The position numbers and the translations under genes are program-made. The notes below the pieces were generated by a model. It was not told where the DNA came from. It made no database searches and worked only from the letters and a program-made list of their open reading frames with translations. Shown here piece by piece: positions 9,585-22,000 of a DNA stretch of 31,155 nucleotides (within the stretch, counting starts at the first letter, position 1; each line of letters begins with the position of its first letter). This DNA comes from a virus. The stretch is taken from the IMG/VR virus record IMGVR_UViG_3300030102_003564, positions 1-31,155 of that record; one strand, written 5' to 3'.

Positions 9585-9851
9585 TCAGTCCTCGTCCGTT
9601 ACCTCTATCGAGTGCATAATCTTGTTAAACTCATCTGCCGTAAGGCCAGCCTGCTTTGCGCAGTTAGCAGCCGCCAGCAAACAGGCTTCCATGAGAGACG
9701 CATACGGCACATCTGCCGTAACGTGCATCCCGTTCAAGTTGCAGATCAACGCTGAGTGCGCAGCGTCTACATCATCATCAAGATCATCTTCGGGGGTAAA
9801 CACAAGCTCCAACTTTGGCTTTCTTGGAAACTGCACAACATTGTCACTCAT
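9585..9851 (-). CDS. Small acidic hypothetical protein after large terminase
   Basis: 88 residues. The ATG at 9851 overlaps the large-terminase stop (ATGA) and so is coupled to it; a GTG three codons earlier is less likely. The start MSDNVVQFPRKPKLELVF is followed by an acidic linker with five Asp in seven residues, then a helical domain ASLMEACLLAAANCAKQAG and a second helix FNKIMHSIEV. An N-terminal NVVxFPRK motif occurs in many small alphaproteobacterial phage and host proteins. Function is unknown. Confidence 0.75.
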   Translation of the reverse strand: MSDNVVQFPRKPKLELVFTPEDDLDDDVDAAHSALICNLNGMHVTADVPYASLMEACLLAAANCAKQAGLTADEFNKIMHSIEVTDED

Positions 9852-11239
9852 ACAACCCACCGCGCATCTGGCTTATAAGTCCCTCTGGTGTTCCAACGTG
9901 AAGCCTGCCCCATAGCCGTTGCACCTTCCTGTGCAAAGGTCAGGACAAACGCGTCAGCAACGTCAGGAGACCTCTGCCCCCTGCGCTTCATCTCGTCCTT
10001 ACTCTCAATCTTCAACTTGCCTGTTGACTGATACTTGTACCGAACAGCCGTCACTTCGCTTATAAGGGCTTCATCGTTTGGTATGTGACAATCTCTTGCC
10101 TCAAACCACTCACGCGCTTTCCAGAACAACTCGTCCCGCAGCCGCGTGAACCGATCCTTCAGCGATGGGCTTTCTGATACCGCGATGCCTATAGCTGGCA
10201 GATCCAACTCCGACAGCCTGTCAGCCAAGCCGCCACCAACCCCGATGGAATCTATAAAGATGCTCGATGGGCGCAACGTGTAAGGCGTGGCCTCATACTC
10301 CGACAGGATAATACCCGCCATCTCCATCAAATCTTTACCCTGCCAAGTCTTGCACTTCTCAACAAGCACCTGCCCCTGACGCTTGCATAAAGCACTCCTG
10401 TCACCACCAAAACGTGCAACGTCTATCCCCCACACTACAGGGGTCATAGGACTTGGCTCAATGTCACGCTTTACAGCGTCCTCTACCAAGTGCAGAGGCA
10501 AAAGAACATCATCCGACTGCGTCGGGAACTCGCCATAAACGCGGATGCGGGTTACATTACTCTCCGCACCATACTTGGCAATCATATCCTCAACAAACTT
10601 CGGATCGACCGTATCAGCGTCCTCACAGGACACTGTCATACACTCAAACTGCTCTCTATTATTGTGAAAAGCATCAAAGAAAAACCCCTCCGCTCTGGTC
10701 GGGTTTCCTGTCAACACCGTCTTAGCGCCCTTCGTCGACATAGCGCCTTCACCGACCTGAAACACCACATCAGGCACGCCGGACGCCTCATCTACAACGA
10801 TGAGCATATTCTCACTGTGGAAGCCCTGCAAAGCCTCTGGATTCTCTCTGCGGCTCGTTCTAAAAGCGCAAAAGCTGTCACTGCTGCCAGCCAAACTGAT
10901 CTTGTCGCTCTTGAAGTCCAACTGGTTGTTGAACCCTTCGGGCATCATCCGCGCCCACTTATCAACCTCAGTCCACAACACATCATTCAACTGATGCGCT
11001 GTGTTTGCCGTAGCAACAATCTTTGTGGGATAACGCGTCAACAACCACCACAATATCAGCCAAGACAAAAACGCCGTTTTTCCAACGCCGTGACCTGACT
11101 TGATCGCAACCTTATCATTCGCCGCAATCGCCCTCAAAGCCTCTGTCTGCCACTGCTGTGGTTCAGCACCAATAACGTGCCGGACAAACATCTCTGGGTT
11201 ATTCCGAAGCTGTAACAGCGTGTCCTGTAGATCAGTCAA
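9848..11239 (-). CDS. terL: Terminase large subunit
   Basis: 463 residues from a TTG at 11239. The frame is open to 11365, but those 42 extra codons only read the ArfA-like gene out of frame. From the TTG the protein starts LTDLQDTLLQLRNNPEMF, the usual opening of this family. The ATPase has Walker A SGHGVGKT (48-55) and Walker B LIVVDEA (about 146-152). The nuclease has GIDVARFGGDRSAL (Asp273), IFIDSIGVGGG (Asp330) and SPDVADAFVL (Asp426, Asp429), an RNase H-type site. It powers DNA translocation through the portal and cuts the concatemer. The TTG overlaps the upstream stop by eight bases, so translation is probably coupled. Confidence 0.93.
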   Translation of the reverse strand: MTDLQDTLLQLRNNPEMFVRHVIGAEPQQWQTEALRAIAANDKVAIKSGHGVGKTAFLSWLILWWLLTRYPTKIVATANTAHQLNDVLWTEVDKWARMMPEGFNNQLDFKSDKISLAGSSDSFCAFRTSRRENPEALQGFHSENMLIVVDEASGVPDVVFQVGEGAMSTKGAKTVLTGNPTRAEGFFFDAFHNNREQFECMTVSCEDADTVDPKFVEDMIAKYGAESNVTRIRVYGEFPTQSDDVLLPLHLVEDAVKRDIEPSPMTPVVWGIDVARFGGDRSALCKRQGQVLVEKCKTWQGKDLMEMAGIILSEYEATPYTLRPSSIFIDSIGVGGGLADRLSELDLPAIGIAVSESPSLKDRFTRLRDELFWKAREWFEARDCHIPNDEALISEVTAVRYKYQSTGKLKIESKDEMKRRGQRSPDVADAFVLTFAQEGATAMGQASRWNTRGTYKPDARWVV

Positions 11240-11375
11240 GCGCCCGCCCCAATCCCAAAGCGCGTCTGGGAGATGCGCTTCTGCCTTTACGCGTATAACT
11301 GCCGCGACCCTTTCGGGATCGCACAACACGCTGCTTAAAACGCGGGTTGCGCAGTGATTTCGCAATTTTGTTCAT
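11232..11375 (-). CDS. arfA-like: ArfA-like alternative ribosome-rescue factor, 47 residues
   Basis: ATG at 11375 with GGGGA upstream, TGA at 11232. Residues 10-32 read NPRFKQRVVRSRKGRGSY then TRKGR. E. coli ArfA has DPLFRQRVEKNKKGKGSY then MRKGK: 13 of 23 identical and nearly all others conservative. ArfA sits in the empty mRNA channel of a stalled ribosome and recruits RF2. The KGKGSY-type segment is its hallmark. The N-terminal helix (IAKSLR) matches ArfA IEALLH. The C-terminus is short, like the processed active ArfA. A 6-bp inverted repeat (AAGCGC/GCGCTT, 11258-11280) follows the core codons. In E. coli a hairpin in arfA yields truncated product. The stop sits at the large-terminase start. 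Confidence 0.72.
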   Translation of the reverse strand: MNKIAKSLRNPRFKQRVVRSRKGRGSYTRKGRSASPRRALGLGRALD

Positions 11376-11404
11376 CGGAGTCCCCTATGCTTCCCAGATG
11401 CAAA

Positions 11405-11464
11405 GGGGGGGGTGAGTGGGGGGAAAGCGCAAGACCTGCCCCCGCGCAGAAATACAGGGGGGGG
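11405..11464 (+). other. Guanine-run cluster in the terminase gap
   Basis: Three uninterrupted G runs lie within 60 bases on the plus strand: eight at 11405-11412, six at 11418-11423 and eight at 11457-11464, with a C5 run at 11439-11443. Such runs stand out against the rest of the window and could form a G-quadruplex or unusual DNA structure. The place, between small and large terminase genes, is where packaging start sites (pac or cos) often lie, but no proof is visible. Confidence 0.5.
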
Positions 11465-11500
11465 TATATCTGTCACCACCTATAAAAATGCGCAGCACTT

Positions 11501-11521
11501 TGGCGATACATTGGCGATACA
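11501..11521 (-). repeat. Pair of TGTATCGCCA repeats identical to attP arm sites
   Basis: On the minus strand TGTATCGCCA occurs twice (11512-11521 and 11501-11510), starts 11 bases apart. The same decamer with the same 11-base spacing flanks the attP core at 21767-21787, and more copies lie at 21950-22000. I saw no other copies in the window. The pair sits in the non-coding gap between small terminase and the ArfA-like gene. The rest of this 200-base gap (11376-11574) holds only the G runs. Confidence 0.75.
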
Positions 11522-11574
11522 CGCCGCAAAGCCGCAGTATTGCTAGAGTTTAGTCAGGCTTGTTATCTAACGAC

Positions 11575-12045
11575 CTAATGAATTGACTTGTTTTTTGGCT
11601 TGTCTGCCTCGCGTGCGCGTACTGCGGAAAGTTGTGCTGGAGTAACATCCTCACTTACTTTCCCCTGCACTGCCTTCAATGCCTCCACATAGCTGCCACC
11701 AGCTTCATGCTCCACCTGCACCCTATCGCCAAACTTCTTTGGCGACATTCTAGCGGCACTCCACTTGAGTCCGTCTATAGCTGCACGCAGCATAGCGCTG
11801 TCCTTATACTTCCCCTGCAGGCCAGCCAGCGATATCTCAGCCACCAATTCCCCATAGTAATTGCCACGCTCTTCTTTTGCCTGATCATACTGGCGTGCAA
11901 ACACTGGATCGCTATCCACCCAATTCTGTATCGTCTTGCTGCTTGGCATACCTTCCTGCTTGCAAGCTTGCGCACAGGAGCGTCCGTTCTTAATCATATC
12001 AAGAAAGGCTGCAACGACTTCAGGTGTCTTTTTTGTCGGATTCAT
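11575..12045 (-). CDS. terS: Terminase small subunit (Sf6-like)
   Basis: 156 residues from ATG 12045 (AGGA ten bases upstream); a GTG seven codons earlier has no ribosome binding site. The N-terminal helix-turn-helix (PEVVAAFLDMIKNGRSCAQA, MPSSKTIQNWVDSD) is of the type that opens Sf6-like small terminases. A central helical oligomerisation region (FARQYDQAKEERGNYYGELV, LKWSAARMSPKKFGDR) follows, with the family's conserved KWxAxxMxPKKFGDR. The C-terminus is charged. It recognises the packaging site and delivers DNA to the large subunit. It overlaps the methyltransferase gene by 26 bases. An unusual 200-base gap separates it from the next gene. Confidence 0.88.
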   Translation of the reverse strand: MNPTKKTPEVVAAFLDMIKNGRSCAQACKQEGMPSSKTIQNWVDSDPVFARQYDQAKEERGNYYGELVAEISLAGLQGKYKDSAMLRAAIDGLKWSAARMSPKKFGDRVQVEHEAGGSYVEALKAVQGKVSEDVTPAQLSAVRAREADKPKNKSIH

Positions 12046-13258
12046 TAAACGTCTTTCCTGTCTCACAATGCACTGCGTCTTGGCCTGTAAACTCCTGCCA
12101 GCGCTTTAAAATTACATCCACATACTTTTCATCAAGCTCGTTAATGTATGCGTTCCTGCCGCTCTTCTCAGCCGCTATCAGCGTGCTTCCAGAGCCACCA
12201 AACAAGTCCAGAACTATATCTGCACCTTTCGTGTTATTAAGTATTTGATACTCAATCAAATCCACAGGCTTCATAGTCGGATGCACATCGTTCCGCTTAG
12301 GCCTGTCAAACTTCAGGATAGTTGTCTGCTTCCTGTCGGATGCCCACAGGTGCGAGGCGCCTTTTTTCCATCCGTATAAGCATGGTTCGTGCTTCCAGTG
12401 ATAGTCCTGCCGTCCCATCACCATCACGTCTTTGTCCCAGATAAGGCACTGCCTAACTTCCCAATCGATATCGTAGCAAGCGCCTCTGAAATTGTATCCT
12501 TCGCTGTCCGCGTGCCAAATATAAAAAGCCGCACCCTTCTTCATCACTATATCAGCAGTGCTGAAGCTATCGACTAGAAACTGTCTGAAGGTATCGTCCG
12601 ACATCTTGTCGTTTTGTATCTTCAACGCGTCTTTTGTCTTGCCGGTGTAATCCACGTTATACGGCGGATCTGTCAGCAACATATCGGCAAGCTGACCATC
12701 CATCAGAGTTTCTATATCGGTGAGAACCGTAGCATCCCCGCATAGCACTCTATGCCTGCCAAGCTGCCACACGTCACCTCTTACGCTCACAGCTTCTTCT
12801 GCAAGCTCTGGAGCGTCGTCAGGGTCAGTAAGCCCTTCATCCACCTTATTGGCTTCAGCCAACAGGCTGTCTATCTCGTCTGCACCAAAGCCGGTCAGGT
12901 CTAGGTCGAACCCCTGCTCAAGCAGCTCTTCGACCTCTACCGCCAGCATTTCGGAGTCCCATCCGGCGTTCAATGCCAGCTTATTGTCAGCTATGACATA
13001 GGCACGCTTCTGTGCGTCTGTTAAGCCCTCAAGCCGTATTGTCGGCACTTCGGATAAGCCCAAGCGCTGCGCAGCCATAAGCCTGCCATGACCCGCTATG
13101 ATCGTGCTTGTCTCGTCAATGAGTATCGGATTAGTCCACCCGAACTCTTTAATGCTTGCCGCTACCTGTGCAACCTGTTCATCGCTGTGAGTGCGGCTGT
13201 TGCGTGCATAAGGCGTGATTGCCTTTGCATCCAAGTATTGAATTTGTATCCCAGACAT
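12020..13258 (-). CDS. ParB-like nuclease domain fused to DNA methyltransferase
   Basis: 412 residues, ATG at 13258. Residues 1-95 are a ParB/Srx-type domain: ITPYARNSRTHSDEQVAQVA, then PILIDETSTIIAGHGRLMAA. Residues 155-395 are an N6-adenine or N4-cytosine methyltransferase of the beta class: catalytic TDPPYNVDY (196-204) precedes the AdoMet-binding DLFGGSGST (351-359), with HPTMKP (326-331) before it. ParB-methylase fusions are common in phages of proteobacteria. No cognate restriction enzyme is present, so protection of phage DNA from host restriction or marking of packaged DNA is more likely than restriction-modification. The start codon abuts a terminator stem and lacks a free ribosome binding site. 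Confidence 0.92.
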   Translation of the reverse strand: MSGIQIQYLDAKAITPYARNSRTHSDEQVAQVAASIKEFGWTNPILIDETSTIIAGHGRLMAAQRLGLSEVPTIRLEGLTDAQKRAYVIADNKLALNAGWDSEMLAVEVEELLEQGFDLDLTGFGADEIDSLLAEANKVDEGLTDPDDAPELAEEAVSVRGDVWQLGRHRVLCGDATVLTDIETLMDGQLADMLLTDPPYNVDYTGKTKDALKIQNDKMSDDTFRQFLVDSFSTADIVMKKGAAFYIWHADSEGYNFRGACYDIDWEVRQCLIWDKDVMVMGRQDYHWKHEPCLYGWKKGASHLWASDRKQTTILKFDRPKRNDVHPTMKPVDLIEYQILNNTKGADIVLDLFGGSGSTLIAAEKSGRNAYINELDEKYVDVILKRWQEFTGQDAVHCETGKTFNESDKKDT

Positions 13259-21868: not shown

Positions 21869-21920
21869 TGGTTGCGGGGGTAGGATTTGAACCTACGACC
21901 TTCAGGTTATGAGCCTGACA
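21869..21920 (-). other. attP: attP core: 3' half of initiator tRNA-Met (fMet)
   Basis: On the minus strand the sequence runs from TGTCAGG, through the anticodon CAT within GGCTCATAACC, the T arm GGTTCAAATCC, to the acceptor end CCCCGCAACCA. It carries A72 before the ACCA end, the mark of bacterial initiator tRNA. The 5' half (D arm and acceptor 5' strand) is missing, so this is not a working tRNA but the identity segment by which integration restores the host gene. The region 21653-22004 has no protein gene; it holds the promoter, arm sites, terminator and this core. Confidence 0.88.
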
Positions 21921-21949
21921 TTTCTGGCGGAAACCCTAAAGCAACTCAG

Positions 21950-22000
21950 CGTATCGCCAATGTATCGCCACGCTTTCGGGAGGAGGGATTTGTATCGCCA
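21950..22000 (+). repeat. attP right arm: three TGTATCGCCA-type sites
   Basis: CGTATCGCCA (21950-21959, first base differs), TGTATCGCCA (21961-21970) and TGTATCGCCA (21991-22000), all in the same direction as the left-arm pair. The first two have the 11-base spacing. Confidence 0.75.

Follow-up and report, generated by a model that had tools for sequence, protein, structure and literature searches.

A predicted ArfA-family protein of alphaproteobacterial type encoded at a phage terminase junction

Among the closest known counterparts of the protein reported here is ArfA of Escherichia coli. According to the parts of PMC8012679 and PMC6299226 that deal with its binding, the ArfA tail lies in the empty mRNA channel, residues 15–31 lie against RF2 with F25 in a pocket of that factor, and single residues of the KGKGS motif are not essential. 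The sections of PMC8012679 on activation further state that residues 1–13 become ordered when RF2 is active, and that with the A18T substitution RF2 is recruited without being activated. Phage ArfA as such is already known, and several phages are so annotated. Labels of ArfA or rescue factor are found for gp10 of Citromicrobium phage RXM (also in print, in the relevant part of PMC8953757), several Brevundimonas (jumbo) phages, Pseudoalteromonas phage J2-1 and, as a note, Ochrobactrum phage OC, while gp30 of Pelagibacter phage HTVC027P was called ArfA by its authors, whose account of this gene records its expression during infection (PMC12753301). As for bacterial chromosomes, Table 1 of one survey gives arfA in 0 of 2,376 alphaproteobacterial genomes (PMC11633108), and the passage on distribution in another describes it as 'not present' in Alphaproteobacteria (PMC10070815). 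One of these surveys relied on DNA-level nhmmer profiles; the other took the Pfam gathering score as its threshold in annotated proteomes.

The window, as we call the whole stretch of DNA that was analysed, is a virus record 31,155 bases long. A Pfam scan of 10 of its proteins recovered, among other families, an integrase, a repressor-like protein, an SU10-type portal and major capsid protein, an Sf6-like small terminase and a Terminase_6N large terminase, and the record looks like a temperate tailed phage, whole or in large part. Its host is probably an alphaproteobacterium. Six relatives of the terminase were found in named genomes, one of them, with 55% identity, in an alphaproteobacterial MAG in which a search for ArfA gave no match. 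Separately, a tRNA-like Rfam match (37.1 bits, E 0.00017) was noted on the minus strand at 21873–21950, about 1.1 kb from the integrase gene, where ARAGORN makes no call; it could be an attachment-site remnant. A connection with tmRNA, whereby integration at ssrA would be compensated by ArfA, was dropped on finding no tmRNA or fragment of one in the window, either by Rfam at E up to 1 or by ARAGORN.

The frame upstream of the large terminase

The arfA-like gene lies between the two terminase genes (Table 1), with its ATG at 11375–11373 and a TGA stop at 11234–11232. The preliminary description had reported a 47-residue frame with GGGGA before its ATG and a stop eight bases into the probable terminase start. 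Both are present in the sequence, the former with a spacing of 5 bases and the latter as an overlap at 11239–11232 with the terminase TTG at 11239–11237. In 57 of 80 relatives (the best 80 of 595 listed) the terminase match begins at query residue 1, which is the TTG start. The stretch by which the terminase frame continues upstream without a stop, as far as 11365, lies wholly across arfA in another frame, and a start at 11365 was rejected because this extension carries a stop in the relative L019; as had been proposed, the extra N-terminal codons are probably just arfA read out of frame. Since arfA has its own ATG just before the terminase and overlaps the terminase start, the two genes are probably translationally coupled, and the overlap makes it more likely that ArfA production is tied to the terminase operon. 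In the gap between the terminase genes (11390–11580) there are C tracts and G-rich stretches that recur across many relatives, possibly as a packaging signal or RNA element.

Table 1. Positions of the features at and around the arfA-like gene in the window
Feature	Positions	Strand	Basis
arfA-like gene, 47 codons and stop	11232..11375	-	ORF list, Pfam, PDB match, selection, HMMs
GGGGA, probable ribosome-binding site of arfA	11381..11385	-	inference from spacing, 5 bases before ATG
Stretch matched by the Pfam ArfA model, residues 8-33	11277..11354	-	Pfam
GGGATTGGGGCGGG block within the end of arfA, probable ribosome-binding region of the terminase	11243..11256	-	sequence and relatives
Open stretch ahead of the terminase start and in frame with it, probably non-coding	11240..11365	-	stop in L019
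Large terminase gene (Terminase_6N), most probable start TTG at 11239	9848..11239	-	ORF list, relatives, Pfam
Small terminase gene (Sf6-like), upstream of arfA	11575..12066	-	ORF list and Pfam

The resemblance to ArfA first noted from the sequence alone was borne out by profile. The window protein scores 29.6 bits against Pfam ArfA (PF03889; curated cut-off 25.5, E 4.8e-7), the sole Pfam family at E up to 1 and hence without a match to PF23876. NCBIfam gave no match, and PHROGs none of significance, the one weak match being phrog_20887 (E 0.17). Six PDB sequences were matched (best E 1e-5), all of them E. coli-type ArfA chains, and the alignments shown pair window residues 2–35 with the solved E. 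coli ArfA without a gap. Counting upheld the 13 identities in 23 positions claimed earlier (10/18 plus 3/5). The motif KGRGSYTRK reproduces the K/R-G-K/R-G-S-Y series followed by R-K of the mRNA-channel part of ArfA, and a phenylalanine occupies what would be position 25 in E. coli numbering, the hydrophobic RF2-pocket residue of ArfA. As an independent check, HMMs to which the window had not contributed searched 12,603 six-frame frames; these came from the window itself, the 80 terminase relatives and L094. The window ranked third (E 1.9e-8) with an HMM of 39 cores not of the alphaproteobacterial type defined below, and second (E 4.3e-14) with one of 7 alphaproteobacterial chromosomal ArfAs; in both lists the first frames unlike ArfA appear only at E above 1.

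The nearest relative carrying arfA is L019, with a terminase 87% identical (among the best 80 of 595 listed). Across 45 aligned codons the two arfA genes show 17 substitutions. Of these, 11 are synonymous and 6 non-synonymous, and 10 fall at third codon positions, giving dN 0.063 and dS 0.405 for this one pair; the other two reading frames show no such pattern. The pair thus shows purifying selection on the arfA frame, and it is this frame, rather than that of the terminase, which the related phage conserves. A chance or non-coding frame was rejected on the family score, the selection and the independent HMMs. Judged by its sequence, the gene is real, and what it encodes is a minimal ArfA-family protein of alphaproteobacterial type.

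A proposed alphaproteobacterial type of ArfA in chromosomes and phages

In 386 genomes whose class is recorded as Alphaproteobacteria, six-frame protein searches, which also detected ArfA-type genes in many phages, gave 9 matches to PF03889 at E 1e-3, 8 of them over the cut-off. A profile of the window's type (A2, which includes 6 of these chromosomal copies) gave 18; 7 of the 9 extra matches were read, and all seven have a shortened loop. Several copies sit among ordinary chromosomal genes. Pfam places that of L099 between a symporter and a photolyase-related gene (L100 is arranged alike) and gives the L105 copy an MscS-like channel gene on one side and a DUF2336 gene on the other, with look-alike ORFs in L104, so that neighbours are shared within two genome pairs. 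The L103 copy lies between GntR and YfbK-like genes and that of L101 between PPIase and DUF1223 genes; the single neighbouring ORF tested in L106 had no Pfam match. These copies contradict the two surveys that report no arfA in the class (PMC11633108 and PMC10070815). The preliminary description's statement that ArfA is mostly a beta- and gammaproteobacterial protein agrees with the published view, but the window type is found in alphaproteobacterial chromosomes as well.

We compared ungapped 29-residue cores of 40 sequences from the phylum, 7 from alphaproteobacterial chromosomes and 41 distinct ones from phages (89 in all, the window included). The phylum cores derive from 397 genomes, of which 55 matched, 50 were fetched and 10 were left out where the core pattern was not found or did not fit; they are unsorted by class, and one (L235) looks alpha-type. 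Among the alphaproteobacterial copies, L100 is identical to L099 and L098 was left out for the same reason of core pattern. Ala17 is found in 2/40 phylum, 7/7 alphaproteobacterial and 41/41 phage cores, and Val or Ile at position 30 in 3/40, 6/7 and 41/41, the last figure being biased by the IMG/VR search pattern described below. At position 18, 32 of the 40 phylum cores have Ala and 7 have Ser, so that Ala18 is not general to the family; Lys stands there in 27 of the 41 phage cores, and 5 of the 7 alphaproteobacterial copies have Arg, Glu or Lys. Phe or Tyr occupies position 25 in 39 of the 41 phage cores. On these grounds we propose an 'alpha-type' ArfA, a new grouping marked in sequence by Ala17, Val/Ile30 and often a basic residue at 18. 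The window core has Ala17, Lys18 and Val30, which assigns its predicted protein to this type, shared with the ArfAs of some alphaproteobacterial chromosomes. In the open-licence literature of PubMed Central, preprints excluded, we found no report of chromosomal ArfA in Alphaproteobacteria or of the alpha-type signature.

ArfA-type genes are common in phages and recur in unrelated ones. A search of IMG/VR with one degenerate pattern from alignment A1, which fixes positions 29–37, found at least 284 stretches encoding a relative among the 599 pattern matches listed. Among 50,697 phage records, the window protein retrieved 16 at E up to 1 and E. coli ArfA 11, including Salmonella phage Arash, Pseudomonas phage pf16 and Pseudoalteromonas phage J2-1; the Salmonella records OR851698, AFYI01000003 and AGRM01000003 are probably host DNA, as their length and 96% identity to E. 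coli suggest. With the alpha-type consensus 121 phage records were retrieved at E up to 10; 96 remained when the limit was set at E up to 1, and 68 of these are Acinetobacter phages. Isolated phages with a relative include those of Citromicrobium, Brevundimonas, Caulobacter, Roseobacter, Ochrobactrum and Pelagibacter. Several annotated phage copies score low with Pfam, for example HTVC027P gp30 (20.2 bits, below the cut-off as a single protein); the copy of Caulobacter phage Cr30, lying between annotated genes, passes with 27.2 bits.

Two further arrangements were seen. At L179:1617–2033 an ArfA domain (PF03889, 29.5 bits) lies inside a longer phage protein whose flanking parts match phrog_2423 and phrog_17747, two families without a known function; L181, L182 and L184 probably encode the same type of longer protein, L179 being the one examined with Pfam and PHROGs. 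A large group of IMG/VR loci (L118–L127, L129–L141 and similar ones) carries near-identical ArfA genes that begin about 27 bases after one ORF and precede another; the former looks like a clamp-loader ATPase and the latter like T4 gp62.

Variation at the junction and the short-loop form

Terminase relatives were taken as the best 80 of 595 listed; in 78 of these 80 the sequence continues for more than 200 bases ahead of the terminase. The models used to scan these junctions include some of the scanned sequences, and a leave-out HMM check was made. The junction between the terminase genes holds a full-loop ArfA in three of the 78 (L019, L036 and L039), a shorter ArfA-type form in four (L006–L009) and no detected ArfA-type gene in 71, among these best 80 of 595; such a junction, with ArfA, a form three residues shorter or neither detected, is new. 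In eight other loci (L040, L068, L070, L072, L074, L076, L077 and L078) a full-loop copy lies downstream of the terminase instead. In a whole-record search with the Pfam ArfA model, 10 of the 80 virus records passed the cut-off, L040 fell short of it (22.2 bits) and L006–L009 were not found. The same model found nothing in the record of C72C1, the closest isolated or deposited phage (terminase 69% identical). In L018, with a terminase 96% identical, the body of arfA is absent and the flanks are kept with a AAAATTTTTGGCA remnant. Of the 80 terminase leaders (best 80 of 595 listed), 14 retain a short AAAATTTTGGCA-like remnant and 50 show a purine-rich block resembling GGGATTGGGGCGGG ahead of the terminase. 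The gene thus comes and goes at a fixed site, by loss or exchange, and given the 71 of 78 relatives with none detected at the junction, it is dispensable for the group.

The protein encoded at this site in L006–L009 has 45 residues and aligns with ArfA minus three residues of the KGKGS loop. L007 and L008 are identical, and the other pairs give dN 0.11–0.16 and dS 0.40–0.45. Pfam assigned no family at E 0.1 to the proteins of L006 and L009. HMMs of 8 short-loop proteins from named phages found L006–L009 at E 7e-4 to 3e-8, and those of 6 chromosomal short-loop proteins from Alphaproteobacteria at E 5e-10 to 7e-12; the window ArfA was found by the same models at E 4.5e-6 and 3.9e-9, respectively. 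In profile-profile comparison, a short-loop profile of 17 sequences (L006, L007 and L009 included; L254, L256 and L261 left out) scored 57.7 against alpha-type ArfA, the best of 50 column-shuffled controls reaching 12.9, and 25.1 against the 39 non-alpha-type cores (best control 11.5), both alignments having a three-residue gap in the loop. The one Acinetobacter protein run through Pfam, from phage Ac42, matched DUF7230 (PF23876, 51.6 bits) and not PF03889, and also phrog_2701; both families are without a function, and PF23876 occurs in 1 of 299 genomes of the phylum. These comparisons identify the short-loop form as a homologue of ArfA that groups with uncharacterised DUF7230-type phage proteins, a new relationship: in open-licence PubMed Central, preprints excluded, DUF7230 is not mentioned, nor is it reported as an ArfA relative. 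An identity of the short-loop form with ArfT was set aside on the description of ArfT in PMC6299226 alone, in the part that treats it. The window gene itself has the full KGKGS loop and falls outside the short-loop/DUF7230 form.

The DUF7230-type gene of Ac42 (L236:1492–1611) lies two genes from rIIA, and L236 and L257–L264 hold short-loop relatives in Acinetobacter (T4-like) and rhizobial phages, several of these copies being unannotated.

Proposed action, alternatives and comparison with known systems

The window ArfA most likely acts by recruiting host RF2 to free ribosomes on broken mRNA. Its F13, Q15–V18 and KGRGS correspond to F25, strand 27–30 and KGKGS of E. coli ArfA. The N-terminal part, with the phenylalanine equivalent to F25, would dock host RF2, which would then hydrolyse peptidyl-tRNA, and the phage could in this way keep ribosomes free when mRNA is cut during infection. 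Expression, binding to the ribosome and RF2, rescue and the benefit to the phage are what we infer from the sequence. The protein lacks E. coli residues 1–13 and has Lys in place of Ala18, and therefore the activation step may differ. A real alpha-type ArfA whose RF2-dependent rescue aids the phage is overall the best explanation, with a probability of about two in three; against it count the sequence differences just named, the 71 of 78 relatives (best 80 of 595 listed) in whose junctions no ArfA-type gene was detected, the failure of PHROGs and NCBIfam to give a significant match and the low Pfam scores of several annotated phage copies. A broader proposal stands at about even odds: the full-loop form (in the window, many phages and some alphaproteobacterial chromosomes) and the short-loop form (DUF7230 and its relatives, in T4-like Acinetobacter and rhizobial phages and other alphaproteobacterial chromosomes) would make up an unrecognised alphaproteobacterial ArfA-type branch, both forms being exchanged or lost by phages at one site, and both working with the host release factor by an activation step unlike the E. 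coli mechanism of Ala18 and N-terminus.

The main rival is that the protein descends from ArfA and has turned inhibitor, sitting on non-stop ribosomes and recruiting inactive RF2 or competing with SmpB/tmRNA, and so shaping host translation for the phage rather than rescuing ribosomes. Lys18 and the missing residues 1–13 would fit this, as would the recruitment of RF2 without activation by E. coli A18T (PMC8012679, in its account of that mutant). However, chromosomal homologues vary at position 18 too: 7/40 of the phylum sample have Ser there, and the residue is Arg, Glu or Lys in 5/7 alphaproteobacterial chromosomal copies, where a pure inhibitor is unlikely; we hold this reading to be unlikely, if the strongest of the alternatives. 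A decayed or untranslated remnant, at a site that matters only as the terminase leader, is improbable: the lack of a detected ArfA-type frame in 71/78 relatives and the pieces kept in 14/80 (AAAATTTTGGCA-like) and 50/80 (purine-rich) leaders, again among the best 80 of 595, speak for it, whereas dN is below dS against L019 and the frames of two distinct ArfA-type forms are intact at the site. Least probable of all is a basic nucleic-acid-binding or packaging-related peptide that merely resembles ArfA, which the very basic character of the protein, its place between the terminase genes and the further small basic ORFs after the large terminase might suggest, but against which stand the ungapped agreement with ArfA (including the non-basic N14, L20, F25, S38 and Y39), the curated Pfam cut-off passed and the independent HMMs that find the window.

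If the proteins of these families are active, rescue dependent on a release factor would be wider than thought, some phages would supply their own rescue factor to hosts that possibly have none, and DUF7230, now without function in annotation, would gain a testable one. The natural variants, which lack Ala18 and the N-terminus or have a short KGKGS loop, would in addition test the structural model of RF2 activation by ArfA.

Set beside E. coli ArfA, the window gene, for a predicted RF2-dependent rescue factor, shares the PF03889 score over the cut-off, the ungapped residues 2–35, the KGKGSY-type motif, the F25 equivalent and a basic tail. It differs in lacking residues 1–13 and in having Ala17/Lys18 for Glu17/Ala18 and Val30 for Glu30, and thus does not belong to the E. 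coli subtype typified by residues 1–13, Ala18 and a stop-less mRNA. Unlike that mRNA, arfA has an ordinary in-frame TGA and no hydrophobic tail. An E. coli-like regulatory hairpin was not seen in the fold of leader and gene (z -0.26; 71 of 200 shuffles at least as stable), no terminator-like sites are listed within arfA, and there is no sign of repression by trans-translation of the E. coli kind. ArfT of Francisella and BrfA of Bacillus resemble it as very small proteins with basic tails that recruit a release factor (in the parts of PMC6299226 and PMC8012679 describing them). ArfT is set apart from the window on its published description: according to PMC6299226 it has KKGGSTNKK and no hydrophobic residue at 25 and works with RF1 or RF2, whereas the window has KGRGSYTRK and Phe25. 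DUF7230/phrog_2701 is homologous to alpha-type ArfA and like the form at the arfA site of L006–L009, but its KGKGS loop is three residues shorter than the full loop of the window. Annotated phage ArfAs are likewise phage-borne, and those compared from alphaproteobacterial phages share N-x-x-A and K/R-G-K/R-G-S/A; they come from other phages and lie in other places, that of HTVC027P directly before the small terminase, whereas arfA at the junction of small and large terminase was found in the window and, among the best 80 of 595 relatives listed, in L019, L036 and L039 alone. As an ArfA the window gene is ordinary; what sets it apart is its type, where it lies and the family to which it leads.
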